Below are positions 583 to 14,558 of a stretch of DNA of 64,000 nt, piece by piece; positions within the stretch are counted from its first letter, which is position 1; the number at the start of each line of letters is the position of its first letter. The notes under the pieces were generated by a model. The model was not told the DNA's origin. It saw only the letters and a list, made by a program, of their open reading frames with translations, and made no database searches. Position numbers and translations under genes: made by a program. Origin of the DNA: Nisaea sediminum (GTDB lineage Bacteria; Pseudomonadota; Alphaproteobacteria; Thalassobaculales; Thalassobaculaceae); NCBI RefSeq assembly GCF_014904705.1, contig NZ_JACZCQ010000003.1:558001-622000 (forward strand), given 5' to 3'.

Positions 583-1611
583 ATGACCTGGGTCATGCCG
601 CCGGAAACAGCTCCCCAGGACCGGATCTGGATGGCGTTTCCGCGTGAAGGCGCAACGCTCGGCTCCAGCGCCTCCGAACAGGAAGCCGGTTATGCCGCCT
701 GGGCCGAGGTTGCCAACACCATCGCGGCTTTCGAACCCGTGTCGATCCTCGTCGATCCGTCCGAGATGGCGCGGGCACGCCGCATGCTGTCGAGCGAGAT
801 CGAGATCATCGAGCGTGTCATCGACGATTTCTGGATGCGCGATCCGGGACCGACCTTCGTGCATGCCGAAGACGGATCGCTTGCCGCAATCGACTGGATT
901 TTCAATGGCTGGGGCGGCGGCGACTGGACATCCGCCCGGAACGATCGCGGCATCGCCCGTTTCATCGCCGGACTTACCGGCGTGCCGGTTGTCTCCTCGC
1001 TGCTCGTCAACGAGGGCGGCGGCCTGCATGTGGACGGCGAAGGAACAATCCTCCTCACCGAGACGGTGCAGCTCGATCCCGACCGCAACCCGCATGCCGA
1101 CAAGGAGCGCGTCGAGGCGGAAATGGCCCGCACCCTCGGCGCCACGAAAACGATCTGGCTGCCGCGCGGCCTGACGCGGGATTACGAGCGCTTCGGCACC
1201 CGCGGTCATGTCGATATCGTCGCGACCTTCCCCTCGCCCGGCACCGTGCTGCTGCACGACCAGTGTCATCCGGACCACCCCGACCATGCGGTGACGAAGG
1301 AGATCCGCGCGCTCCTGTCCGAAGCGACGGACGCGCGGGGTCGCCGTCTCGAGATCCTCGACCTGCCAGCGCCCGACACCCTGACCGACGCCCATGGGCC
1401 GGTCGACTGGAGCTACGTCAACCATCTCGTCGTCAATGATGGTGTGATCGCCTGCGGTTTCGGGGAAGCGGGGGCGGATGCACGGGCCCGGGATATCCTC
1501 GCCGCTGCCTATCCCGGCCGCCGCGTGGTGACGGTCGATGCCCGCGAGCTCTTCGCACGCGGCGGCGGCATTCATTGCATTACGCAGCAACAGCCGAAAC
1601 CGAAGACATGA
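583..1611 (+). CDS. aguA: Agmatine deiminase (PAD_porph family)
   Basis: 342 residues. Family motifs in order: PPE...DRIWMAFP near the N-terminus, DFWMRDPGPTFV (~residues 83-94), DWIFNGWGGG, NEGGGLHVDGEGTILLTE, GTRGHVDIVATF with the catalytic His region, and the C-terminal GGGIHCITQQQP carrying the nucleophilic Cys. The family hydrolyses the guanidino group of agmatine to N-carbamoylputrescine and ammonia; related members act on arginine or peptidyl-arginine. The C-terminal motif is one residue shorter than the usual GGGNIHCITQQQP. Its stop overlaps the next start as ATGA, so translation is probably coupled. No N-carbamoylputrescine amidase of the nitrilase type (AguB) is nearby; an amidase-signature enzyme sits in its place. 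Confidence 0.88.
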   Translation: MTWVMPPETAPQDRIWMAFPREGATLGSSASEQEAGYAAWAEVANTIAAFEPVSILVDPSEMARARRMLSSEIEIIERVIDDFWMRDPGPTFVHAEDGSLAAIDWIFNGWGGGDWTSARNDRGIARFIAGLTGVPVVSSLLVNEGGGLHVDGEGTILLTETVQLDPDRNPHADKERVEAEMARTLGATKTIWLPRGLTRDYERFGTRGHVDIVATFPSPGTVLLHDQCHPDHPDHAVTKEIRALLSEATDARGRRLEILDLPAPDTLTDAHGPVDWSYVNHLVVNDGVIACGFGEAGADARARDILAAAYPGRRVVTVDARELFARGGGIHCITQQQPKPKT

Positions 1612-3593
1612 GGCTGGTCGATGCCTCCATCGCCGAGCTTCGCGCCGCGCTCGAAACCGGCCGCACCAGCTCGGTTGCCCTCGTCGCGGGCTACCTCAAC
1701 CGCATCGCGTTCTATGACCGTCATGGAGCGCGACTGAATTCCGTAACCGCGCTGAACCCGGCCATGTTCGAGGAAGCGCTCGCCTCCGACCGGCGCCGCG
1801 CGCGCGGCGAAGTGCTCGGACCGCTGGACGGTATCCCCTATACGGCGAAGGACAGCTACATGGTGAAGGGGCTTCCGGTTTCCGCCGGTTCGCCCGCCTT
1901 TGCCGATCTCATCGCCGCCGACGACGCCTTCGCCATCGCCAGGTTGCGCGCCGCCGGCGCAATCTTCATCGGCCATACGAACATGCCACCGATGGCGAAT
2001 GGCGGCATGCAGCGCGGCCTCCATGGCCGTGCGGAATCGCCTTACAATGCCGATTGGCTGACGGCCGCTTTCGCTTCCGGCTCCTCCAACGGGTCCGGCA
2101 CCGCGACGGCGGCGAGCTTCGCCGCGTTCGGGCTCGGGGAGGAAACCTGGTCGTCCGGCCGCGCCCCCGCCTCCAACAATGCTCTTTGCGCCTATACGCC
2201 GAGCCGGGGCGTCATCTCGGTGCGCGGCAACTGGCCGCTGGTCCCGACCATGGACGTGGTGGTGCCGCATACGCGCACAATGGCCGACCTGCTGGAGCTG
2301 CTTGACGTGATCGTCGCCGACGATCCCGAGACACGCGGCGACTTCTGGCGCATGCAGCCCTGGGTCAAGATCCCGAAAGCCTCCGGCATCCGCCCCGCTT
2401 CCTATGCCGCTCTTGCCGAGGACGCATCGCTCAAGGGCAAGCGCATCGGCGTGCCGGCGATGTACATCAATGCCGACCCGAAGGCGGGCACGGCCGCGCA
2501 TCCCGGCATCGGCGGGCCGACCGGGCAGCGCATCGACACACGGCCGTCGATCATCGCGCTCTGGGAGGCGGCACGGCAGGCGATGGAAGCCGCCGGCGCC
2601 GAAGTGGTCCTCGTCGATTTTCCGGCTGTCTCGAACTACGAGGGCGACCGTCCGGGCTGCCCCACGATCAAAAGCCGCGAGCTTGTCGGCGCCGAATATC
2701 TCCAGCGCGAGATCGTCGACCTCTCGGTCTGGTCCTGGGAGGAGTTCCTTTCGGCGAACGGTCGGCGGCTCGCCAATGTCGATGGCGGGAAAATCTTCCC
2801 CGTGCCGAAGGGCAGCCTGCCGGACCGCTATACCGGCTTCGACGACACGATCAGTCTCTATCCGGATTATGCGCGTAGCCTCGACCTCACCGATTTCAGG
2901 GCCATTCCGCATATTGCCGAGGGTGTGAAAAGGCTCGAGGAAACCCGCCGGATCGATCTCGAGGACTGGATGGACAATCTCGGTCTCGACGCGATTGTCT
3001 TTCCCGCCGTCGCCGATGTCGGCCCGGCCGACGCGGACACCGACCCGGCCTCCGCCGATGTGGCCTGGCGCAACGGCGTCTGGGTCGCCAACGGCAATCT
3101 CGCGATCCGTCATCTCGGCATCCCGACAGTCACCGTGCCCATGGGGACAATGGCCGATATCGGCATGCCGGCCGGCCTCACCTTTGCCGGGCGGGCCTAT
3201 CAAGACACTTTTCTGCTGCAACTCGCAGCGGCTTTCGAGGCCACGGGCGCGAGGAGGGTTCCACCGCCGCGCACTCCGGAACTCGGCACTCCTTTCGAAG
3301 CTCAGGGAGCGGCATCGGAGGGCGTGGCCGCGCCGGATTTTTCGACCTCGGCAGAGTTGCTCGATACGCGCCGGGTGCGGATCACGGCAGAGTTCGGCGC
3401 CGACGCGATACCCGTCACCGTCACCGTCGACGGCGAACCCGTCCGCTGCACCAAGACGGCTGCCGGTTACCGCATCGAGCATATCGTTCCCCGCAACGAC
3501 CATCGCCACAGCGAATGGTTGGAGCCCTGGGGGCATCTGCTCATTGTCCTCTTCGACAACGGCACAGCCGGTTTTCGCGAGCTGTCGCCCTAA
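1608..3593 (+). CDS. Amidase-signature family hydrolase
   Basis: 661 residues when started at the ATG that overlaps the aguA stop; an ATG at 1575 would overlap aguA by 37 bases and is less likely. The amidase-signature triad is visible: Lys81 in YTAKDS, a cis-Ser near 163 in SGSSNGSG, and the nucleophile Ser183 in WSSGRAPAS. The family cleaves C-N amide bonds of small amides, ureas or carbamoyl compounds in the cytoplasm (no signal peptide). At 661 residues it is longer than ordinary amidases (450-500); the extra C-terminal ~130 residues may be a second domain. Its place between an agmatine deiminase and a ureohydrolase suggests a carbamoyl or urea-derived substrate, for example N-carbamoylputrescine, but this is inference. 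Confidence 0.85.
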   Translation: MRLVDASIAELRAALETGRTSSVALVAGYLNRIAFYDRHGARLNSVTALNPAMFEEALASDRRRARGEVLGPLDGIPYTAKDSYMVKGLPVSAGSPAFADLIAADDAFAIARLRAAGAIFIGHTNMPPMANGGMQRGLHGRAESPYNADWLTAAFASGSSNGSGTATAASFAAFGLGEETWSSGRAPASNNALCAYTPSRGVISVRGNWPLVPTMDVVVPHTRTMADLLELLDVIVADDPETRGDFWRMQPWVKIPKASGIRPASYAALAEDASLKGKRIGVPAMYINADPKAGTAAHPGIGGPTGQRIDTRPSIIALWEAARQAMEAAGAEVVLVDFPAVSNYEGDRPGCPTIKSRELVGAEYLQREIVDLSVWSWEEFLSANGRRLANVDGGKIFPVPKGSLPDRYTGFDDTISLYPDYARSLDLTDFRAIPHIAEGVKRLEETRRIDLEDWMDNLGLDAIVFPAVADVGPADADTDPASADVAWRNGVWVANGNLAIRHLGIPTVTVPMGTMADIGMPAGLTFAGRAYQDTFLLQLAAAFEATGARRVPPPRTPELGTPFEAQGAASEGVAAPDFSTSAELLDTRRVRITAEFGADAIPVTVTVDGEPVRCTKTAAGYRIEHIVPRNDHRHSEWLEPWGHLLIVLFDNGTAGFRELSP

Positions 3594-3671
3594 ACGATCC
3601 TGCTTGTGGGATCAGCCGGAATGGACTGCAATGCGCGCACGCATTCTCTTCCAGTCCGCCGGGATCAAATC

Positions 3672-4628
3672 ATGTCAGCGCACGGTTACGAAACGGGCCG
3701 CCTCAACCTGCCCTTCGTCGGGATTTCGACCTTCGGCAAGTACCCCTATCAGCCGGACTGGGACGCCATCGAGGCGGATGTCGCGGTGCTCGGCGCGCCG
3801 TTCGATTTCGGCACCCAGTTCCGTGCGGGCGCCCGCTTCGGTCCGCGCGGGATCCGGGAGGCCTCCACCCTTTTCTCCTTCGGCCATGGCGGCGCCTACG
3901 ACCACGAGGACGACATCACCTACCTGCCGGCGGAGACAACGCGGATCGTCGATCTCGGCGACGCGGACATCATTCATACCGACACCCAGCAGAGCCACGC
4001 CAATATCGAGTACGGGGTGCGCAAGATCCTGAAAGCCGGCGCCATCCCCGTCGTGCTCGGTGGCGACCACTCGGTGAACATTCCCTGCATCAACGCCTTC
4101 TCCGAGGAAGAACCGGTGCATCTGGTGCAGATCGACGCCCATCTCGATTTCGTCGACGAGCGCCACGGCGTCCGCGCCGGCCACGGCAACCCGATGCGCC
4201 GGGCGGCGGAAAAGGATTATGTCACCAGCCTGACGCAGATCGGCATCCGCAACGTCTCCTCCACTGCCCGCGAGGGCTACGAGGCGGCGCGTTCCATGGG
4301 CTCCGACATCCTTTCTGTCCGCCAGTTCCGCAAACTCGGCGTCGCGGCGGTGCTGGAGCGCATCCCGGCCGGCAAACGCTATTACGTCACCATCGATATC
4401 GACGGCTTCGACCCCTCCATCGCCCCCGGCACCGGCACCCCGAGCCATGGCGGCTTCACCTACTACGAAGGGCTGGAACTGCTCGACGGGCTGACGAAGC
4501 GGGGCAGCGTCGTTGGCGTCGATCTGGTCGAGGTCGCGCCGGACTACGACCATGCGGGCTGTACGACGACGCTCGCGGCGCAGCTGCTGCTGAACTTCAT
4601 CGGGCGGATTCTGCATCACCGCACCTAG
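3672..4628 (+). CDS. speB: Agmatinase-type ureohydrolase (arginase family)
   Basis: 318 residues from the ATG at 3672, which has a GGGAT-like site 8 bases upstream; an earlier ATG at 3606 adds 22 residues that do not look like the family. The Mn2+ site is complete: GGDHS (His133), DAHLDF (Asp155, His157, Asp159) and DIDGFDPS (Asp242, Asp244). Ureohydrolases split guanidino compounds into urea and an amine. Agmatine to putrescine is the default reading; guanidinobutyrate or guanidinopropionate are equally possible from sequence alone. It is co-directional with aguA and the amidase, 78 bases after the amidase stop, and ends in a 4-base convergent overlap with the DUF1062 gene. Confidence 0.85.
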   Translation: MSAHGYETGRLNLPFVGISTFGKYPYQPDWDAIEADVAVLGAPFDFGTQFRAGARFGPRGIREASTLFSFGHGGAYDHEDDITYLPAETTRIVDLGDADIIHTDTQQSHANIEYGVRKILKAGAIPVVLGGDHSVNIPCINAFSEEEPVHLVQIDAHLDFVDERHGVRAGHGNPMRRAAEKDYVTSLTQIGIRNVSSTAREGYEAARSMGSDILSVRQFRKLGVAAVLERIPAGKRYYVTIDIDGFDPSIAPGTGTPSHGGFTYYEGLELLDGLTKRGSVVGVDLVEVAPDYDHAGCTTTLAAQLLLNFIGRILHHRT

Positions 4629-5236: not shown

Positions 5237-5562
5237 GCCGGTTCGCACTTCCCACTGGGAAGTTCGCCGGATGACGGGATCCGATCAGGCGCGGATACGG
5301 AAGCAGAGCTTCAGGAAATTGCGTTTAAGCGGCCGGGTTATCCGGCGCGGTTCAGCCGTGCCAAACCGGTCTCGACCGCCACCACGCGAAACTTCCATAA
5401 CAGAAGGAGCGGCGCCGTGATCACGGGCCGCGCTGAGATTCGTGGTTCTGGTGAGACCGGCATTTAACTAGGCAAACTGGCTCTACCCTGAGCGATTTCG
5501 AAGGCGTTCTACATATCCGTGCACAACTTGCCGGGCAATACCTGAAGAGAACGCCGCCGATA
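5237..5562. other. Intergenic stretch with no recognisable gene
   Basis: About 325 bases upstream of the DUF1062 gene, up to the terminator of the operon that ends at 5615. Short frames here have no homologue I recognise and no convincing ribosome binding sites. It must contain the DUF1062 promoter, but I see no strong match. Confidence 0.4.
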
Positions 5563-5592
5563 AAGAAAGGGGCGGGCCCGAAGGTCCGCCCC
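5563..5592 (-). terminator. Rho-independent terminator of the TRAP/gamma-glutamyl operon
   Basis: A 10-bp GC-rich stem with one mismatch (5569-5578 with 5583-5592) and a CGAA tetraloop. On the minus strand it is followed by the T-rich TTTCTTTATC. It lies 23 bases after the stop of the iron alcohol dehydrogenase gene and closes the seven-gene operon. Confidence 0.85.
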
Positions 5593-5614: not shown

Positions 5615-6760
5615 TCAGATCGACTGCTTGAACAGTTCGGTCAGGTTCTCGACCGTGAGCTCCACCGGGTTGCCGCCGCAGCTCGGATCCTCGATCGCCA
5701 TGGCGGCGAGTTCGCCGATCCGGTCGGTGCCGACGCCGAGTTCGGACATCTTGTCCGGGATCGAGAGCTGCTCGCGCAGTTCCAGGACATAGTCGTAGAA
5801 CCCGTCGAACCCGCCGGAGATGCCGAGATAGGCGCCCGCCTGGGCGAGTCTGTCCTCGATGGCCGGGCGGTTGAATTGCAGCACCGGCGGCATGACCACC
5901 GCGTTGGTGGTGCCGTGGTGGGTGTTGTAGACGGCACCGAGCGGGTGCGAGAGCGCATGGATCGCGCCGAGGCCCTTCTGGAAGGCAGTCGCGCCCATGG
6001 CCGCAGCGCTCATCATGTGGGCCCTGGCCTCGATGTCGCCACCGTCGGCATAGGCGCGCGGCAGGTACTCCTTGACCAGCCGCATGCCCTCGAGCGCGAT
6101 GCCCTGGCTCATCGGGTGGTAATGCGGGCTGCAGAAGGCCTCAAGGCAGTGCGCGAAGGCGTCCATGCCGGTGCCGGCCGTGATCGGCTTCGGCATGCCG
6201 ACGGTCAGTTCCGGGTCGCAGATCACCACGCTCGGCAGCACCTTCGGATGGAAGATGATCTTCTTCACGTGGGTCTCGGAATTGGTCAGCACGCTGGCGC
6301 GGCCGACCTCGGAACCGGTGCCGGCGGTGGTCGGCACGGCGACGCTCGGATGGATCTTGCTGGCATCGGCGCGGGTCCACCAGTCGCCGATATCCTCGTA
6401 ATCCCAGACCGAGCCCTTCTGGTCCGCCATGAAGGCGACCATCTTGGCGAGGTCGAGGCCGGAGCCGCCACCGAAGGCGACGACGCCGTCATGATTGCCC
6501 GCCTTGAAGGCCTTGATGCCGGCCTCGAGGTTCTTCTCGTTCGGGTTCGGATCGACCTCCGAGAAGATCGCCCGGCCGAGGCCCGCGGCCTCCAGCAGGT
6601 CCAGCGTCTTCGCCGTGATCGGCAGGCTGGCAAGGCCCTTGTCGGTGACGAGCAGCGGGCGCTTGATGCCGGCGGCGGCGCAGGCCTCGCCGATCTCGGC
6701 AATGCGTCCGGCGCCGAAGCGGATCGCGGTCGGGTAGCTCCAGTTGGCTTTGATACTCAT
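5615..6760 (-). CDS. Iron-containing alcohol dehydrogenase
   Basis: 381 residues, full length for the group III Fe-ADH family. Visible are the NAD(P)-binding GGGSGLD (residues 97-103), PTTAGTGSEV (~143-152), and the metal ligands Asp200 and His204 (GMDAFAHCLEA), His268 (AIHALSHPLG) and His282 (NTHHGT). The family oxidises primary alcohols to aldehydes or does the reverse with NAD(P). The gene is the last of the operon and starts 5 bases after the aldehyde dehydrogenase stop. In this setting it is expected to oxidise the hydroxyl of a gamma-glutamylated amino alcohol to the aldehyde used by the preceding gene product (inference). Confidence 0.9.
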   Translation of the reverse strand: MSIKANWSYPTAIRFGAGRIAEIGEACAAAGIKRPLLVTDKGLASLPITAKTLDLLEAAGLGRAIFSEVDPNPNEKNLEAGIKAFKAGNHDGVVAFGGGSGLDLAKMVAFMADQKGSVWDYEDIGDWWTRADASKIHPSVAVPTTAGTGSEVGRASVLTNSETHVKKIIFHPKVLPSVVICDPELTVGMPKPITAGTGMDAFAHCLEAFCSPHYHPMSQGIALEGMRLVKEYLPRAYADGGDIEARAHMMSAAAMGATAFQKGLGAIHALSHPLGAVYNTHHGTTNAVVMPPVLQFNRPAIEDRLAQAGAYLGISGGFDGFYDYVLELREQLSIPDKMSELGVGTDRIGELAAMAIEDPSCGGNPVELTVENLTELFKQSI

Positions 6761-6765
6761 GGCCG

Positions 6766-8148
6766 TCAGGCTTTCTTCAGATGGTAGGATTTCGGGCGTG
6801 TCAGGTTCTGGAACCCGATCACGGAAAGGGCGCCGCCGCGGCCGGTATCCTTGCAGCCGGTCCAGCAGAGGCCCGGATCGAGATAGTCCGCGCGGTTCAT
6901 GAAGACGGTTCCGGTCTCGATCCGCGCGCCGATGGCCGCGGCCCGTCCGGCGTCCTTGGTCCAGAGCGAGGCGGTGAGGCCGTAATTGCTGTCGTTCATC
7001 ATGCGGATGGCCTCCTCGTCGCCGGAGACCTTCATGATGCCGACGACCGGGCCGAAGCTCTCTTCCCGCATCACCGTCATTTCATGGGTCACGTCGACAA
7101 GGATCTGCGGCATCAGATAGGCGCCGCCATCGTCTTGCGGAAAGAGCGCCGGATCGATCAGCGGTTTCGCGCCCTTGGCCACCGCGTCCGCGGTCTGCTC
7201 ACGCACCACAGCGGCGAAGCGCTTGTGCGCCATCGGGCCGAGCGTCGTCGCTTCCTCCAGCGGATTGCCGAGCTTGTAGCCGGAGACGATCGCCACCGCC
7301 TTCTCGACGAAGGCGTCGTAGAGGCTCTCGTGCACATAGATCCGCTCGATACCGCAGCAGCACTGGCCGGAATTGAACATCGCACCGTCGATCAGCGTGT
7401 CCACCGCCGCGTCGAGGTCGGCGTCCTCCATCACATAGCCAGGATCCTTGCCGCCAAGCTCGAGGCCGAGCCCGGTGAAGGTACCCGCCGCCGCCCTCTC
7501 GATGGCACGGCCGCCGCCGACCGAGCCGGTGAAGTTGACGAAATCGAAGCTCTTCGAAGAGATCAGCGCCTCGGTCGTGCCGTGGTCGAGGAAGAGATTG
7601 ACGAAGAGGCCTTTCGGCAGCCCCGCCTCCTCGAAGGCGCGGACCATGCGCTCGCCGACCAGCAGGGTCTGGGTCGCGTGCTTCAGCGCCACCGCGTTCC
7701 CGGCGATGAGCGCCGGCGCGACGGTGTTGATCGCCGTCATGTAGGGATAGTTCCAGGGCGCGATCACGAAGACGAGGCCGTGCGGCTCGCGCAGGATGCG
7801 GCGCTCGAACTTGTCCGAGTCCTCGATCACGATCGGCGCCAGCGCGCTCTCGGCGATTTCCGCCATGTAGGAGGCGCGCTCGTTCGTGCCGCCGAACTCG
7901 CCGCCGTAACGGACCGGCCGGCCCATCATATGCGCCAGTTCCGGCACCATTTCGGCCTGCATCTCGCCGAGCCGGGCAACGCCGGCGCGCACCAGGGCGA
8001 CACGCTCGGAAAGCGGACGCGCCGCCCAGGCGCGCTGGGCCTCCCGCGCCGCGGCGATTATTTCCCGCGCCTGATCGAGACCTAGTACCGGCCGTTCGGC
8101 GAAGACCGAGCCGTCGATCGGCGAAATACATTGCAGCATCTTGCTCAT
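6766..8148 (-). CDS. NAD(P)-dependent aldehyde dehydrogenase
   Basis: 460 residues from the ATG at 8148; a TTG at 8169 would overlap the upstream ligase gene and is less likely. ALDH landmarks: APWNYPY with the catalytic Asn, FTGSVGGG for cofactor binding, LELGGKDP with the general-base Glu, and NSGQCCCGIERI with the nucleophilic Cys (three Cys in a row). It turns an aldehyde into a carboxylate in the cytoplasm. It lies 7 bases after the glutamine-synthetase-like gene and 5 bases before the Fe-ADH gene, so the three form a tight ligase-ALDH-ADH block, the layout expected for oxidising a gamma-glutamyl-protected amino alcohol. Confidence 0.9.
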   Translation of the reverse strand: MSKMLQCISPIDGSVFAERPVLGLDQAREIIAAAREAQRAWAARPLSERVALVRAGVARLGEMQAEMVPELAHMMGRPVRYGGEFGGTNERASYMAEIAESALAPIVIEDSDKFERRILREPHGLVFVIAPWNYPYMTAINTVAPALIAGNAVALKHATQTLLVGERMVRAFEEAGLPKGLFVNLFLDHGTTEALISSKSFDFVNFTGSVGGGRAIERAAAGTFTGLGLELGGKDPGYVMEDADLDAAVDTLIDGAMFNSGQCCCGIERIYVHESLYDAFVEKAVAIVSGYKLGNPLEEATTLGPMAHKRFAAVVREQTADAVAKGAKPLIDPALFPQDDGGAYLMPQILVDVTHEMTVMREESFGPVVGIMKVSGDEEAIRMMNDSNYGLTASLWTKDAGRAAAIGARIETGTVFMNRADYLDPGLCWTGCKDTGRGGALSVIGFQNLTRPKSYHLKKA

Positions 8149-8155
8149 TTGGGTG

Positions 8156-9523
8156 TCAGGCCCTTTCAAACCCGCGATTCACTTCCCAGTCGGTCACCCG
8201 ACGGTCGTATTCGGCCTGCTCCCAGCGGGCCGCATGCACATAATGGTCGATCACGTCGTCGCCGAAGGCCGCCCGCAGCATCTTCGAGCCGTCGAGCTCG
8301 TCGGCCGCCTGGCGGAGCGTGGCGGGGATCTCCGGAACGCCGGTGCCGACATAGGCATCGCCCTTGAACTCGCCTTCGAGCTTCATCTTCTTCTCGATCC
8401 CGTCGAGCCCGGCGGCAATCAGCGCCGCCATGGCGAGATAGGGATTGAGGTCCGAGCCGCCGATCCGGCACTCGACACGCACCGCCTTGGTGCCGTCGCC
8501 GCAGACGCGGAAACCGGCCGTGCGGTTGTCCATCGACCAGACGATCTTGGTCGGCGCGAAGGTGCCGGCGACGAAGCGCTTGTAGGAATTGATGTAGGGC
8601 GCAAGGAAACAGGTGATCTCCTTGGCATGCGCCAGCAGTCCAGCGAGGTAGCTCTGCATCATCTCCGACATGCCGTATTTGGCGTCCGGATCGAAGAACA
8701 GCGGCTTACCGTCCAGCGTCCAGAGCGACTGGTGGATGTGCGAGGAGTTGCCCGCATAGTCGTAATTCCATTTTGCGAGGAAGCTGATCGCGCGGCCCTG
8801 CGCCCAGGCGATCTCCTTGCAGCCGTTCTTGATCAGCACATGCCGGTCGGCCATGGTCAGCGCCTCGGCATAGCGCACATTGATCTCTTCCTGGCCGGCG
8901 TCCGCTTCGCCCTTGGAGTTCTCCACCGGCACGTCGGCGCCGTGCAGGCCGTTGCGGATCGCCCGCATCAGGCCCTCTTCCTTGGTCGTCTGGAAGATGT
9001 GGTAGTCCTCGTTATAGGGACTGATCACGTCGAGATTGCGGTATCCCTGCGCGTGGGCTTCCTCGAAGCTCTGCTTGAAGACGAAGAATTCCAGCTCGGA
9101 GGCCATGAAGGCCTTCATGCCCAGCGCTTCCAGCCGCTTGACCTGCTTCTTCAGGATCGCGCGCGGCGAATGCGCGACCTCTTCGTGGGTGTGATGGTCG
9201 AGCAGGTCGCAGAACACCAGCGCCGTGCCTTCGAGCCACGGAATGCGGCGGATCGTCGAGAGATCCGGCTTCATCGTGTAATCGCCGTAGCCCTTTTCCC
9301 AGCTCGTCGCCTTGTAGCCCTCGACCGTGTACATCTCCATGTCGTTCGCCTGGAGATAGTTGCAGCTGTGGGTCTCCTCGTAGGCGCTCTCGCAGAAGAA
9401 CTCGGCATGGAACCGTTTGCCCATCAGCCGTCCCTGCATGTCGATCTGGACCGCGAGAACGGTATCGATCTCGCCGCTTCCGACGGCCGCCTTCAATTCG
9501 TCGAAGCTGAGCTTGCCTGCCAT
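8156..9523 (-). CDS. Glutamine synthetase-like gamma-glutamyl-amine ligase
   Basis: 455 residues. The GS catalytic domain is clear: ASELEFFVF (first metal Glu), GQEEINVRYAEAL, SSHIHQSL (His of the ATP site), NRTAGFRVCG and RVECRIGGSDLNPYLAMAA (substrate and phosphate Arg residues). The N-terminal part lacks the DGSS stretch that contributes the ammonium-binding Asp of true GlnA, and no adenylylation Tyr motif is seen. This fits the GlnA-like enzymes (PuuA, IpuC, GlnT-like) that join glutamate to an organic amine at the cost of ATP. Linked TRAP, ADH and ALDH genes point to an amino alcohol such as ethanolamine or alaninol, but the amine cannot be read from sequence. Confidence 0.87.
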   Translation of the reverse strand: MAGKLSFDELKAAVGSGEIDTVLAVQIDMQGRLMGKRFHAEFFCESAYEETHSCNYLQANDMEMYTVEGYKATSWEKGYGDYTMKPDLSTIRRIPWLEGTALVFCDLLDHHTHEEVAHSPRAILKKQVKRLEALGMKAFMASELEFFVFKQSFEEAHAQGYRNLDVISPYNEDYHIFQTTKEEGLMRAIRNGLHGADVPVENSKGEADAGQEEINVRYAEALTMADRHVLIKNGCKEIAWAQGRAISFLAKWNYDYAGNSSHIHQSLWTLDGKPLFFDPDAKYGMSEMMQSYLAGLLAHAKEITCFLAPYINSYKRFVAGTFAPTKIVWSMDNRTAGFRVCGDGTKAVRVECRIGGSDLNPYLAMAALIAAGLDGIEKKMKLEGEFKGDAYVGTGVPEIPATLRQAADELDGSKMLRAAFGDDVIDHYVHAARWEQAEYDRRVTDWEVNRGFERA

Positions 9524-9608
9524 GACGCTACCCCATCACTCCATTGATCCGGGCCCGGCCCGGAAGTTTCTGCCGGCGGCAGGACGCCGCGCGGCAACGA
9601 AGTAGTAT

Positions 9609-9650
9609 CCGGGCGCCCGTACGCGCAAGGTCCGCGTATCGGGCGGCCGG
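9609..9650 (-). repeat. Long imperfect hairpin between TRAP dctP and the ligase gene
   Basis: CCGG/CCGG, CGCCCG/CGGGCG and ACGCG/CGCGT arms pair across a small loop to give a stem of roughly 15 bp with bulges. There is no T-run after it, so an RNA-stabilising or processing hairpin at the 3' end of the dctP segment is more likely than a terminator. Confidence 0.55.
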
Positions 9651-9683
9651 AGAAATGCCGCTCCCGGAGGAGACGATCAGGTC

Positions 9684-10739
9684 TTAGCTATAGCGGTACG
9701 GCTTGCCCGCCTTTTTCATATCCGATGCATACTTCTTGAAGATATCGATGACCTTCTTAGTCCGCGGCGTCTGGGCGGCGATTTCGTCCCAGAACTTCTC
9801 GGCCTCGGCCTCGACCGTCGCCCACTCGTCGTCGGCGATGGTGGTCAGCTTCATCTTGGTGCCGTCGACGCGCAGCTTCGCCTCGCCGCCCCAGTACCAG
9901 TGCTGGCGGTAATAGTGCGAGCTGTCCATGCAGAGCCTGAAGAGTTCCTTCAGATGCTCCGGCAGCTCGTTCCAGCGTTCGGAGTTGGCGAAGTAGGAAC
10001 CGCACCAGGCACCGGAAATGTTGTTGGTGAGGAAGTAGTTGGTCACGTCGGCCCAGCCCACCGTGTAATCCTCGGTGATGCCCGACCAGGCGATGCCGTC
10101 GAGCTCGCCGGTCTGCACCGCGACCTCGATGTCTTCCCACGGCAGGGTCACCGGAATGACGCCGAAGCGGGACAGGAACTTACCCGCGGTCGGGAAGGTG
10201 AAGACCCGCTTGCCCTTCAGGTCGTCGAGCTTGTTGATCGGATCGACGGTGGCGAAGTGGCACGGGTCCCAGGCGCCGGCGCTGAGCCAGGTCACGCCCT
10301 CGACTTCACCGTAAGCCTCTTCCCAGATCTCCTTCAGGCCGTACTGGTTGAACAGCACCGGTACGTCGAGGCTGTAGCGGGTCGCGAACGGGAAGTAGCC
10401 GCCGAAGACCGAGATATCGACCGGCGCAGCGATGGAATCGTCGTCGCTCTGCACCGCGTCGATGGTGCCGCGCTGCATGGCGCGGAAGAGCTCGCCCGTC
10501 GGAACCAGCTGGTCGGCGAAATAGAGCTCGATCTCCATCTCGCCGTTGGCGACCTTGTTGAAGGCGTCGATCGACGGCTTGATCACGTGCTCGGCGAGCG
10601 CCGGACCGGCATAGGTCTGCAGCCGCCACTTGATCTTGCTCTGGGCCTTCACGGCCGGCGCGGCGAGTGTCGCGGCTCCGGCAACGCCCGCCGTCGTCGC
10701 GGCGGCGGCCGTCTTCAGAAATTCACGTCTGTTCGTCAT
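9684..10739 (-). CDS. TRAP transporter substrate-binding protein (DctP family, Tat-type signal)
   Basis: 351 residues. The N-terminus NRREFLKTAAAA followed by an Ala-rich core and APAVKAQS is a twin-arginine-type export signal, so the protein is periplasmic. The mature part carries DctP/TakP-family features: QTYAGPALAEHV, LYFADQLVPTGELFRAMQRG, LDDLKGKRVFTFPTAGKF and ELDGIAWSG. It captures a solute for the DctQM permease encoded just upstream. Members close to the alpha-keto-acid type bind varied organic acids and amines; the ligand here is unknown. It is separated from dctM by a hairpin-rich 145-base gap and from the ligase gene by another hairpin, a layout that usually lets binding protein exceed permease. 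Confidence 0.88.
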   Translation of the reverse strand: MTNRREFLKTAAAATTAGVAGAATLAAPAVKAQSKIKWRLQTYAGPALAEHVIKPSIDAFNKVANGEMEIELYFADQLVPTGELFRAMQRGTIDAVQSDDDSIAAPVDISVFGGYFPFATRYSLDVPVLFNQYGLKEIWEEAYGEVEGVTWLSAGAWDPCHFATVDPINKLDDLKGKRVFTFPTAGKFLSRFGVIPVTLPWEDIEVAVQTGELDGIAWSGITEDYTVGWADVTNYFLTNNISGAWCGSYFANSERWNELPEHLKELFRLCMDSSHYYRQHWYWGGEAKLRVDGTKMKLTTIADDEWATVEAEAEKFWDEIAAQTPRTKKVIDIFKKYASDMKKAGKPYRYS

Positions 10740-10740
10740 G

Positions 10741-10813
10741 TCACCTGTCTCCCTTAGGTGATGGGCCCTCGGGCCCGGTTAACCCTCAATGGAACGGTTC
10801 CCAGGCCGTTCCA
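10741..10813 (-). repeat. Three tandem hairpins between dctM and dctP
   Basis: TGGAACGG (10790-10797) pairs with CCGTTCCA (10806-10813) over 8 bp. GGGCC pairs with GGCCC at 10763-10776. TCACCT (10741-10746) pairs with AGGTGA (10756-10761), which puts the likely GGGAG ribosome binding site of dctP in a loop. No T-run follows. They could set mRNA stability or translation of the binding-protein gene. Confidence 0.6.
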
Positions 10814-10884
10814 TCCGCACTGTCATGGCGCGATGCGCCTCCCCTTCCCCGTTTCTTCTTCAGTTCGGTCCCATCGCGGCCCGA

Positions 10885-12210
10885 CTACCTTCCGTAGAAT
10901 TGGTTGGGCAGCCACATCGCGATATCGGGGAAGATCATGACCAGAATGAGCGCCAATGTCATGACCAGCACGAAGGGGCCGATGGACCGGTAGATGTCCG
11001 ACAGCGTGACCTCCGGCGGCGCCATGGCGCGCATCAGGAAGAGGTTGTAACCGAATGGCGGCGTCATATAGGCGATCTGGCAGGTGATCGTGTAGAGCAC
11101 GCCGTACCAGACCAGATCGAAGCCCAGCATCTTCACCAGCGGCACATAGAGCGGCGCGACGATGACCAGCATCGCCGTGTCGTCGAGGAACATGCCCATC
11201 AGGATGAAGGAGAGCTGCATCAGGATCAGGATCTCCCAGGGCCCGAGACCGAGCCGGTCGACGAAGAAGCTCTCGATCGCCTTAACGGCGCCAAGACCGT
11301 CGAAGACGGCGCCGAAACAGAGCGCGGCGAGAATGATCCACATGAACATGCAGGAGATGCCCAGCGTCTTGCGCAGCACCTCTTCCATAACCTCCGCCGT
11401 CAGCCGGCGCTTGACGAGCGCGGCCAGGGTCGCCGCCGTGGCTCCGACAGCGGAGCTCTCGACCAGCGAGGTCACCCCCATCAGGAACAGCCCGGTCATC
11501 GAGAAGAAGATGAAGAGCGGCAGGATGCCGGCCTTGAGCAGGCTGATCTTCTCTTCCCAGGTGATTTCCGCCCGCTCCTCCTTGCTGAGCGACGGCCCGA
11601 GGGAGGGCTGCATCCAGCAGCGGATGACGATATAGGCGATGAACATGCCCGCCATCATCAGGCCGGGTATGGCGCCCGCGAGCCAGAGCTGGCTGACCGG
11701 CTGGCGCGCGATCATGCCGTAGAGCACGAGCACGACGCTCGGCGGCACCAGGATGCCGAGCGAACTGCCGGCCTGGATCACGCCGGTCACCATGATCTTG
11801 TCGTAGCCGCGGCGAAGCAGTTCCGGCAGCGCGATACTGGCGCCGATGGCCATGCCCGCAACCGAGAGCCCGTTCATCGCCGACACCGCGACCATCAGCA
11901 GGATCGTGCCGATCGCGAGACCGCCGTTCAGCGGCCCCATCCAGACATGGAACATGCGGTAGAGATCGTCGGCGATCTTCGACTCCGACAGCATGTAGCC
12001 CATGTAGACGAAGAGCGGCAGGGTCAGCAGCGGATACCATTTCATCAGCTTCATGGCCGCGCTGAAGGCCATTTCGGAGCCGCCGTCGCCCCCGAGCTGC
12101 AGCGCTGCCGCCCTGGCCGCGGAACCCATGGGCCCGAAGACCCGCTGCCCCGTGAGGAGCAGCAGCATCATCGAGGAGAACATGAGGAGGGCGATAAGCT
12201 CGTAACTCAT
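10885..12210 (-). CDS. dctM: TRAP transporter large permease (DctM)
   Basis: 441 residues of almost unbroken hydrophobic segments, about 12 predicted helices. Family features: VAVSAMNGLSVAGMAIGASIALPELLRRGYDK near residues 100-135, the SSLGILVPPSVVLVLYG loop, MGMFLDDTAMLVIVAPLYVPLV, and AYMTPPFGYNLFLMR near the C-terminus. It forms the sodium-driven channel of the TRAP transporter with the small subunit. The start overlaps the DctQ stop as ATGA, so the two subunits are translationally coupled. Confidence 0.92.
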   Translation of the reverse strand: MSYELIALLMFSSMMLLLLTGQRVFGPMGSAARAAALQLGGDGGSEMAFSAAMKLMKWYPLLTLPLFVYMGYMLSESKIADDLYRMFHVWMGPLNGGLAIGTILLMVAVSAMNGLSVAGMAIGASIALPELLRRGYDKIMVTGVIQAGSSLGILVPPSVVLVLYGMIARQPVSQLWLAGAIPGLMMAGMFIAYIVIRCWMQPSLGPSLSKEERAEITWEEKISLLKAGILPLFIFFSMTGLFLMGVTSLVESSAVGATAATLAALVKRRLTAEVMEEVLRKTLGISCMFMWIILAALCFGAVFDGLGAVKAIESFFVDRLGLGPWEILILMQLSFILMGMFLDDTAMLVIVAPLYVPLVKMLGFDLVWYGVLYTITCQIAYMTPPFGYNLFLMRAMAPPEVTLSDIYRSIGPFVLVMTLALILVMIFPDIAMWLPNQFYGR

Positions 12211-12716
12211 CAGAGTTCCTCCCCGCGCAGTGCGGCAATATCCTTGAAGAGCGTCGCGACCGCCTGCAGCAGCATGAGCAGAACCCCGAAGGTCATGACG
12301 ATCTTCACCGGCGCCATGTAGGGCGCCCAGGCGGAATAGCTCTGCTCGTTGTATTCGATGGCGTAGGCGGTCGAGGAATAGCCGCCATAGAGCAGCAGGC
12401 AGAGATAGAAGATCAGGAAGAGAACGGTGATCGAGTCGACCAGAGAGCGGGTCCGCGGTTTCCAGTTCGTGTAGAGCAGGTCCATGCGCACATGGTCGCC
12501 GAGCTGCATGGAATAGCCGCCGCCCAGCAGGTAATAGGCCACCATCAGAAACTGCGCGGTCTCGAGCGTCCAGAGCGACGGCAGGAATACCGCCTTGGAA
12601 AGCGACGAATAGAGCAGCACGCCCAGCATCGCGAAGATCAGATACATCGCGAACCGGCCGATGAAGCGGTTCATCTTCTCGACATAGGCAACGTAGAGCC
12701 GTATCGCTTTTGGCAT
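12210..12716 (-). CDS. dctQ: TRAP transporter small permease (DctQ)
   Basis: 168 residues from the ATG at 12716, which is directly preceded by AAGGGGCGGAGG; a longer frame to 12776 would overlap the upstream gene. Four hydrophobic segments are visible, with the DctQ-type SLWTLETAQFLMVAYYLLGGGYSMQ region and a conserved DHVRMD after it. It partners DctM in the inner membrane. It starts 10 bases after the stop of the amidohydrolase-like gene. Confidence 0.88.
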   Translation of the reverse strand: MPKAIRLYVAYVEKMNRFIGRFAMYLIFAMLGVLLYSSLSKAVFLPSLWTLETAQFLMVAYYLLGGGYSMQLGDHVRMDLLYTNWKPRTRSLVDSITVLFLIFYLCLLLYGGYSSTAYAIEYNEQSYSAWAPYMAPVKIVMTFGVLLMLLQAVATLFKDIAALRGEEL

Positions 12717-12726
12717 CCTCCGCCCC

Positions 12727-13539
12727 TTATCTCTGCTGGTCGTTGCTGTTGCCGTCGCCGCCCGCGCAGAGCTCAAGAGCCCTCGCTACCGCGCCCGACA
12801 GCCGCTCCGCCATGGCGCGCTGCTGCGCCGTCTCGCGGATGATGTCGTTGCGGATTTCGATCATGACGTTGAGCAGGCCATGCGGCAGCGCGTGGACCTT
12901 CAACGTGTGCGTCACGCCATCGGCCGGGCCGTAGGGCTCGTTCCGGCGTACGTCCAGTCCGGCGAATATTTCCTGCTGATCCAGCATTGCGTCGGCGAGG
13001 CGGCTGTCCGCATCGTGAAGAATGCCGAGATCGAAATGTCTTTCGACCCCTTTGTAGACGGGCGTGAAGGAATGCACGGTCACGATCGCCGGACGCTGTC
13101 CCGCCGCCATGCGGCCTTCGATGACGTGCTCCAGCGTGTCGCGGAACGGAAAGTAGATCCGCTCTGCGCGTTCTGCGCGCTGCATCTTGGTCAGGCCGGC
13201 ATTGCCCGGGATTTCGTAGATCTCGCTCACCGCCGGCATGGCGCTTTCGGCCTCGGGCGGGCGGTTGCAGTCATAGACCAGGCGGGAAGTCTTCGCCGCC
13301 ACCAGGGGCGCATCAAGCGTGGCGGCCATGGTCGAAGCCACGGCAAGCGCTCCCGGGTCCCATGCCACATGGCTCTGTTGGACGGCTTCGTCAACGCCGA
13401 GCCCATGCAAATGGGCCGGAATATGGTTGGAGGCGTGTTCGCAAACGACGATCGCGGCACGCTTGCCGCCCTCGTTCGTCACGCTGACCGGATTGCCCCA
13501 CGCGGACAGATCCGCGATCGGCTGCGCCGACAATGCCAC
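12727..13539 (-). CDS. N-formylglutamate amidohydrolase-like protein (COG3931 type)
   Basis: 270 residues from a GTG at 13539, chosen because GGGGAG lies 7 bases upstream; a TTG at 13575 is weaker. Family motifs: VVCEHASNHIP (metal-binding His region), SRLVYDCNRPP, VTVHSFTPVYKG and RHFDLGILHD. Characterised relatives (HutG type) cleave N-formyl-L-glutamate to formate and glutamate with a metal ion. No histidine-degradation gene is near. It is the first gene of the TRAP/ligase/ALDH/ADH operon, so an attractive reading is hydrolysis of the gamma-glutamyl product to recycle glutamate, the step PuuD performs in putrescine degradation. That role is inference. Confidence 0.82.
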   Translation of the reverse strand: MALSAQPIADLSAWGNPVSVTNEGGKRAAIVVCEHASNHIPAHLHGLGVDEAVQQSHVAWDPGALAVASTMAATLDAPLVAAKTSRLVYDCNRPPEAESAMPAVSEIYEIPGNAGLTKMQRAERAERIYFPFRDTLEHVIEGRMAAGQRPAIVTVHSFTPVYKGVERHFDLGILHDADSRLADAMLDQQEIFAGLDVRRNEPYGPADGVTHTLKVHALPHGLLNVMIEIRNDIIRETAQQRAMAERLSGAVARALELCAGGDGNSNDQQR

Positions 13540-13682
13540 TCGCCCTCTCCCCTGACGTTGCAGCCATCTTTTCAACTTTGATCAGGCAGTCAAGGATAAT
13601 TCTGAAAATTCCTCTTCTATAAATCTGAGATTGTCGCATTATTTTCAAAACGACACGGCGCGGTCGCGCCCGGGAGGATGAA
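13540..13682. promoter_or_regulatory. Divergent promoter/operator region of the gamma-glutamyl operon and its RpiR regulator
   Basis: 143 bases between the divergent starts. An AT-rich core (about 13575-13655) contains CTGAAAAT and, on the other side, ATTTTCAA, which form spaced GAAA/TTTC half sites of the kind RpiR-type proteins bind. I cannot fix exact -35/-10 elements. The regulator probably controls both directions from here. Confidence 0.45.
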
Positions 13683-14558
13683 TTGTCGGAACCCCTGACC
13701 GGAACGGTGGCGGAGCGCATCAGGCGCCGGTTCGAGTCGCTGACCCGAGCGGAGCGTCAGCTCACCAATGTCATTCTCGAGAACTATCCGGTGTCCGGCC
13801 TCGGCACGATAACGACACTGGCCGAGACAGCCGATGTCTCCACGCCGACGGCGGCGCGGATGGCCCGCAAGCTCGGCTTCGGCGGTTTTCCCGAGATGCA
13901 GGCCGCGCTCCGGTCGGAACTCGAGGCCACCCTCTCCAATCCGATCGCGAAGCACGACAGCTGGGCCGCGAACGCACCGGACACCCATATCCTCAACCGC
14001 TTCGCCGATGCGGTGACGGACAATCTCAGGCAAACCCTGCAGCAGCTCGACCTCTCGGACTTCAACGCGGTCGTCGACCTGCTGAGCGATCCTGCACGCA
14101 ATATCTATCTCGTTGGCGGCCGCATCAGCCGGTCGATGGCGGATTACTTCTTCACCCACATGCAGGTGATCCGGGACGGTGTGACGCTGATCTCGCCGAA
14201 TTCGAACACCTGGCCGCATTATGTGCTGAACATGAAGGAAGGCGACGTGCTCGTCGCCTTCGACATCCGGCGCTACGAGCATGACACGCAGCGCCTGGCG
14301 GAAATGGCGAAGGAGCGCGGGGCGCGCCTGGTGCTCTTCACCGACCAGTGGGGCTCGCCGGCCGCGAAACATGCGAGCCACAGCTTCCGCGCCCGCATCG
14401 AGGTGCCGTCGGCCTGGGACAGTTCCGCCGTGATCCTGTTCATCATCGAGGCGCTGATCGCCGCGGTGCAGACGGAACGCTGGGAAGAGACAAGGGACCG
14501 GATGAAAGTTCTGGAACAGCTCTTCGACCAGACGAAACTCTTCCGCAAGTTCACCTGA
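13683..14558 (+). CDS. RpiR/MurR family transcriptional regulator
   Basis: 291 residues from a TTG start. GGGAGG at 13672-13677 is spaced 5 bases from the TTG, whereas the ATG at 13678 is in another frame and stops after six codons. The N-terminal helix-turn-helix (ERIRRRFESLTRAERQL then TITTLAETADVSTPTAARMARKLGFGGFPEMQ, residues ~10-75) is the HTH_6 type. Residues ~125-255 form a SIS phosphosugar-binding-like domain with IYLVGGRISRSMADYF. RpiR proteins sense small effectors and control catabolic genes. It is divergent from the seven-gene operon and most likely regulates it. Confidence 0.9.
   Translation: MSEPLTGTVAERIRRRFESLTRAERQLTNVILENYPVSGLGTITTLAETADVSTPTAARMARKLGFGGFPEMQAALRSELEATLSNPIAKHDSWAANAPDTHILNRFADAVTDNLRQTLQQLDLSDFNAVVDLLSDPARNIYLVGGRISRSMADYFFTHMQVIRDGVTLISPNSNTWPHYVLNMKEGDVLVAFDIRRYEHDTQRLAEMAKERGARLVLFTDQWGSPAAKHASHSFRARIEVPSAWDSSAVILFIIEALIAAVQTERWEETRDRMKVLEQLFDQTKLFRKFT

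Follow-up and report, generated by a model that had tools for sequence, protein, structure and literature searches.

A further instance of the Eto-type ethanolamine operon in the alphaproteobacterium Nisaea sediminum

Background

Ethanolamine, which derives from membrane phospholipids, is a widespread source of carbon and nitrogen. Here we analyse a stretch of 64,000 nucleotides (nt) from Nisaea sediminum (assembly GCF_014904705.1, contig NZ_JACZCQ010000003.1, positions 558,001-622,000 of the forward strand; hereafter, the window), in which seven minus-strand genes for a tripartite ATP-independent periplasmic (TRAP) importer and four enzymes face a divergent regulator of the RpiR family. We report that this cluster is a further instance of the already known Eto ethanolamine operon, a sound but ordinary finding, and that it very probably serves ethanolamine utilisation by gamma-glutamylation.

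The closest described counterpart is the ethanolamine operon of Phaeobacter sp. MED193, MED193_10021-10056 (Westermann et al. 2023, PMC10132767). Its genes encode, in order, an RpiR regulator, a gamma-glutamylglycine amidohydrolase, the importer proteins EtoV, EtoW and EtoX, an ethanolamine gamma-glutamylase, a gamma-glutamylacetaldehydeamide dehydrogenase and a gamma-glutamylethanolamide dehydrogenase. According to the same report, five proteins of the operon are raised during growth on phosphorylethanolamine, and EtoX binds ethanolamine with a dissociation constant (Kd) of 7.9 uM and does not bind phosphorylethanolamine, phosphocholine or glycerol phosphates; in the legend of its Fig. 5 the catabolic pathway is headed 'predicted', and Vetting et al. 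are cited for C. salexigens and A. tumefaciens. For the pathway of Chromohalobacter salexigens, a 2022 review tabulates the enzyme families PF00120, PF00465, PF00171 and PF05013 (PMC9397018). In Streptomyces coelicolor, an ethanolamine pathway based on GlnA4 has been proposed to pass through the same intermediates and to end in glycine and glutamate; as presented in PMC6529630 it comprises no TRAP importer, and the cluster figure shows a short-chain dehydrogenase, a putative transporter and a glutamine amidotransferase. Despite that figure label, both the text of PMC6529630 and Table 2 of PMC9397018 place SCO1615 in the formylglutamate amidohydrolase family.

Two other routes deserve mention. 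The classical Eut pathway, which depends on the EutBC ammonia lyase, acts on the same substrate by a different chemistry. In the Ipu pathway for isopropylamine, gamma-glutamylation precedes oxidation; its substrate and gene set differ from those considered here.

Results and Discussion

Gene content and order of the locus

All eight open reading frames (ORFs) of the cluster were confirmed, and each Pfam assignment exceeded its cut-off (Table 1). Reading away from the regulator, the seven minus-strand genes (5615-13539) encode a PF05013 hydrolase, DctQ, DctM, DctP, a ligase resembling glutamine synthetase (GS), an aldehyde dehydrogenase (ALDH) and an iron-dependent alcohol dehydrogenase (Fe-ADH). 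When compared by gene names and locus-tag order, the window and the MED193 operon as described in PMC10132767 share all eight gene types and their order, RpiR-PF05013 hydrolase-DctQ-DctM-DctP-GS-like-ALDH-FeADH, with no difference in gene content. The four enzyme families are also those tabulated for C. salexigens in PMC9397018. An earlier reading of this DNA, made from the sequence alone, had regarded the TRAP-fed system with its hydrolase as not described as a unit; that claim was mistaken, because PMC10132767 describes exactly this unit, and the families of the pathway are listed in PMC9397018. The arrangement of seven minus-strand genes facing a divergent RpiR gene, which the same reading had noted, is borne out by the ORFs and by Pfam. 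Its description of the genes as tightly packed holds for four junctions (hydrolase-DctQ, 10 nt; DctQ-DctM, a 1-nt overlap; ligase-ALDH, 7 nt; ALDH-ADH, 5 nt) but not for the two beside dctP, where 145 nt separate DctM from DctP and 160 nt separate DctP from the ligase. The start of the hydrolase was refined to a GTG at 13539, preceded by GGGGAGAGGG; the longest ORF opens with a TTG at 13575.

Table 1. Features of the operon and of its flanking sequences, in window coordinates
Feature	Position	Strand	Basis and remarks
Terminator-like hairpin with UUCG loop and U-tract, past the last gene	5562-5592	-	Folding, -25 kcal/mol, z -2.0
Fe-dependent alcohol dehydrogenase, GETADH-like (gamma-glutamylethanolamide dehydrogenase)	5615-6760	-	PF00465, PF25137; equivalent place in MED193
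Aldehyde dehydrogenase, GAADDH-like (gamma-glutamylacetaldehydeamide dehydrogenase)	6766-8148	-	PF00171; ORF opens at 8169, ATG 8148 read from sequence
GS-like ligase, putative ETAGA (ethanolamine gamma-glutamylase)	8156-9523	-	PF00120; nearest PDB 11zs and 5dm3 (Csal_0679)
DctP/EtoX solute-binding protein	9684-10739	-	PF03480; signal of twin-arginine translocation (TAT) type; platform residue E223; F180 in place of the usual Arg
DctM/EtoW large permease	10885-12210	-	PF06808
DctQ/EtoV small permease	12210-12716	-	PF04290; ATG 12716 read from sequence
PF05013 hydrolase, putative GGAH (gamma-glutamylglycine amidohydrolase)	12727-13539	-	PF05013; nearest PDB 2odf, Atu2144
Candidate (putative) -35 TTGACT upstream of the hydrolase gene	13588-13593	-	Read from sequence
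TTTCAGAA half-site, candidate RpiR operator	13600-13607	-	Spacer motif; upstream of TTGACT
TTTTGAAA, inverted half-site, one mismatch to TTCTGAAA	13643-13650	-	Read from sequence; spacer motif
MurR/RpiR-family regulator, divergent	13683-14558	+	HTH_6 and SIS (Pfam)

The binding protein and its ligand

The DctP protein has a single close solved relative, the sequence shared by entries 4uab and 4xf5 (E 1.8e-169), whose titles name Csal_0678 of C. salexigens; the next distinct PDB sequence scored 1.2e-14. Entry 4UAB is a complex with ethanolamine in which Glu220 is the platform residue (PMC12410723), and ethanolamine was an unexpected ligand for a TRAP protein when it emerged from the work of the Enzyme Function Initiative (EFI; PMC5812351). 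Most TRAP binding proteins bind carboxylates through an arginine that is absent from Csal_0678 (PMC4646407). In the window protein, E223 corresponds to Glu220 (by alignment and entry numbering), and the position of the carboxylate-binding arginine, located by aligning two further TRAP binding proteins from the same genome, is occupied by F180. E223 was invariant in all 81 sequences compared (the window and the 80 loci of the survey below, which are 77-90% identical and were chosen for similarity). With an acidic platform residue and no carboxylate-binding arginine, the window DctP is, by its sequence, of the Csal_0678 type. Its TAT signal model scored 19.6 bits against a cut-off of 16.7. The predicted structure was of low confidence (mean predicted local distance difference test score, pLDDT, 51.9; best fold match Z 14.7, root-mean-square deviation 5.0), so that fold matches were used only for entry titles and residue numbering, and the ligand assignment is carried by the sequence match.

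The physiological substrate might instead be another short 2-amino alcohol, such as alaninol, serinol or alaninol derived from isopropylamine, with gamma-glutamylalanine or a similar compound as product, much as in the Ipu pathway. The enzyme chemistry would be identical, and the solved homologue is represented by two entries, 4uab and 4xf5, the latter reported to hold 2-amino-1-propanol. Ethanolamine is, for its part, the abundant natural compound. An unrelated ethanolamine receptor, CqsR, accepts all three ligands, with Kd values of 1.3 uM for ethanolamine, 3.2 uM for L-alaninol and 15.9 uM for serinol (PMC12410723), whereas the MED193 operon responds to phosphorylethanolamine and its EtoX binds ethanolamine in the micromolar range (PMC10132767). 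We consider such an alternative substrate very unlikely, and ethanolamine remains the most likely one, with gamma-glutamylglycine as the last intermediate.

The ligase and the other enzymes

In the PDB, the ligase is matched most closely by 11zs (E 3.9e-195) and 5dm3 (E 1.5e-187), the third distinct sequence scoring 1.8e-52. By its title, 5dm3 is Csal_0679, an EFI target whose locus number adjoins that of the binding protein Csal_0678; both the binding protein and the ligase of the window therefore have close solved relatives in this C. salexigens cluster, and the window ligase is, by sequence match, of the Csal_0679 kind. Its predicted model was of higher quality (pLDDT 82.9). Entry 11zs is a Brucella melitensis protein deposited, according to its title, as glutamine synthetase. 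Its identity to the window ligase (8156-9523) is about 60%, and by score it falls together with Csal_0679, well clear of true glutamine synthetases; for these reasons it may itself be an ethanolamine gamma-glutamylase.

Against NCBIfam, the ligase fell below the cut-offs for GlnA (265.9 vs 429.15 bits), type III GS (238.3 vs 469.6) and the gamma-glutamylputrescine synthetase PuuA (198.5 vs 650), and on these scores a true glutamine synthetase and PuuA were rejected as its identity. A PuuA-like ligase that tags a diamine would point to a polyamine, diamine or GABA-type route, an alternative that could draw on the general resemblance of ligase, ALDH and hydrolase to the Puu enzymes and on an agmatinase-family gene at 3606-4628. 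Yet besides the low PuuA score, the operon includes an alcohol dehydrogenase and, by Pfam, no amine oxidase or aminotransferase, its DctP is of the ethanolamine-binding type, and the agmatinase gene lies on the opposite strand and has a match in no survey locus outside Nisaea (2 of 80 loci); such a route is extremely improbable. A last alternative, that the ligase is a true glutamine synthetase of ordinary nitrogen metabolism and that the TRAP system next to it is unrelated and imports dicarboxylates, is scarcely credible. The ligase does retain the GS fold and many GS residues, but besides its sub-threshold scores the genome has a clear GlnA elsewhere (L104) with an FDGSS motif, and where that protein has DGSSIAGW the ligase reads EGYKATSW, adjacent to an alignment gap. 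In addition, the carboxylate arginine is missing from the binding protein, and the gene set is conserved.

For the hydrolase, the sole PDB sequence match was Atu2144 (2odf), and no NCBIfam family was matched in a library that was not checked for a HutG deformylase model. The best NCBIfam model for the Fe-ADH was 4-hydroxybutyrate dehydrogenase (354 bits, below the cut-off of 500), and for the ALDH no model reached its cut-off among the 25 matches listed of 44. EutB had no match in the window genome (one genome of 5.0 Mb in 22 contigs, 98.8% complete; the E. coli control was positive), and the classical Eut pathway was accordingly rejected for it.

The proposed pathway and the evidence for and against it

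The relatives of DctP and ligase, the gene-for-gene match with MED193, the ligand-site residues, the conserved gene order and the lack of a EutB match together lead us to the ethanolamine assignment. EtoX would capture ethanolamine in the periplasm, and EtoVW would carry it inward. The ligase would then join it, with ATP, to the gamma-carboxyl of glutamate, giving gamma-glutamylethanolamide, which the Fe-ADH and then the ALDH would oxidise to gamma-glutamylglycine. The PF05013 hydrolase would split this product into glycine and glutamate, so that glutamate would be recycled. The sequence-only reading had put forward the same scheme of TRAP import of an amino alcohol, gamma-glutamylation, oxidation and hydrolysis, and it is well supported by the Csal_0678/0679 relatives and the MED193 operon.

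Several observations weigh against this assignment. Ethanolamine binding has been shown by others for homologues, namely Csal_0678 (PMC12410723) and MED193 EtoX (PMC10132767), and the role in N. sediminum, whose enzyme reactions, inducer and operator we infer, would be carried over by analogy. By annotation, Csal0679 is listed among putative glutamine synthetases (PMC5299690). The C. salexigens pathway is 'demonstrated' according to PMC10132767 and 'predicted in an in silico approach' according to PMC6529630, so that the strength of the original evidence is variously reported. Finally, the importer occurs with more than one set of enzymes. Among 80 loci selected by DctP (see below), the ligase stood without the hydrolase in 7, a ligase of another clade was present in 27, and the hydrolase occurred with no ligase in 6; in 16, the stored flanks contained none of these genes. 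In the opposite direction, selection by the ligase gave 37 genomes besides that of the window, and the flanks fetched from them included DctP in only 12 and the hydrolase in 9.

Conservation and distribution

Our survey comprised the best 80 of 547 confirmed DctP-like stretches and is therefore biased to close relatives; several of these loci are cut by contig ends. The nearest named loci, from Nisaea nitritireducens and N. denitrificans, are 90% identical in DctP. At E <= 1e-60, DctP was found in 5/5 genomes of the genus and 15/36 of the order, all from one family. The hydrolase occurred together with a ligase at least 60% identical to that of the window (class A) in 24 of the 80 loci, and the exact eight-gene order was observed in 18 of the 21 class-A loci with flanks long enough to judge. 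In the three exceptions, both dehydrogenases were missing (L005, L017) or the genes were reshuffled with no Fe-ADH match (L071). This conservation of gene order in other genomes places the grouping seen in the window beyond chance.

The ligase itself, at E <= 1e-120, was found in 38 of 289 genomes of the class. In the fetched flanks of the 37 ligase-picked genomes, Fe-ADH was matched in 28 and ALDH in 24, three of the latter only 26-28% identical and on the other strand; six genomes had the exact order, and one (L149) had all eight genes in a different order. Among genomes whose DctP locus had no ligase nearby, 7 of 22 carried one at another site, with 61-67% identity; two of these seven ligases were partial. 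Of the 80 genomes of the DctP survey, 15 had a EutB match, which in one case was weak and contained an internal stop.

The other ligase clade beside the same importer (27/80 loci) is 30-34% identical to the window ligase, as in Pseudomonas sp. WN033 (L030:7016-14826, 34%). In these loci ALDH and Fe-ADH were matched in 25/27, a hydrolase-like protein with a class-I glutamine amidotransferase domain in 10/27 (L030 included) and the PF05013 hydrolase in 0/27. This combination appears to represent a sister version of the pathway; a limited literature search for it in print turned up only PMC10132767. In eight further loci (L003, L007, L015, L020, L033, L045, L063 and L068), the 9-kb flanks of the importer were complete yet contained no homologue of the ligase or the hydrolase, and GS-like proteins elsewhere in these genomes were at most 33% identical. 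The nine neighbours scanned in L003 and L015 (four and five, respectively) form no coherent pathway and look unrelated.

Transcription signals and a candidate operator

The sequence-only reading had the operon end in one terminator. A G+C-rich hairpin followed by UUUCUUU does lie just past the Fe-ADH stop and makes a terminator plausible, yet it is unproven: of 200 shuffles of the 51 nt folded, 9 folded at least equally well, and the consensus scan, which performed at chance level (6 terminators found vs 6.3 expected), listed none at the operon end. The TTGACT at 13588-13593 was likewise absent from the promoter list of this chance-level scan; by eye and uncounted, TTGAC-type hexamers stand near a half-site in many of the RpiR-hydrolase spacers.

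TTCTGAAA or its complement, with at most one mismatch, was present in 21 of 25 such spacers (mean of shuffled spacers 7.4, maximum 12), as was TTCTGTAA (mean 3.8, maximum 6). The set, which includes the spacer of the window, was obtained by removing the reshuffled L071 and then three near-duplicates (28 to 25). The best sampled words in shuffled spacers reached 12-15, in a control of up to 600 words per shuffle and 10 shuffles, compared with all words on the real spacers; shuffling ignores relatedness. The inverted TTCTGAAA-type half-sites at 13600-13650, which are conserved in the corresponding spacers beside divergent RpiR genes elsewhere, are thus a candidate operator; RpiR bound there, close to the -35, would probably act as a repressor in the absence of an inducer. 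Members of the RpiR family are better known as sugar-phosphate sensors. A broader and rather doubtful idea is that the operon would serve short 2-amino alcohols generally (ethanolamine, alaninol and serinol), and that RpiR, acting at these half-sites, would use its SIS domain to sense either the amine itself or a gamma-glutamylated intermediate.

Neighbouring genes

Convergent with the operon, on the plus strand, lie an amidase gene (1575-3593; NF005127, 994 bits vs a cut-off of 575, with about 100 C-terminal residues beyond the model match) and, after it, the agmatinase-family ureohydrolase gene (TIGR01230, 191 vs 174). The two named Nisaea loci likewise retain a ureohydrolase match next to the operon. 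Both genes were ruled out as parts of the system, given their strand and the restriction of the ureohydrolase match to those two survey loci and the same-genus L140.

Conclusions

The value of this analysis is mainly one of confirmation, in that a published pathway was correctly recovered by a reading from sequence only, and the operon is now recorded in the genus Nisaea. To this we add a candidate site for the regulator and a picture of the re-use of one importer with other enzyme sets. For the organism, the gamma-glutamylation route would open ethanolamine as a source of carbon and nitrogen in a way that requires no EutBC lyase and makes no free acetaldehyde.

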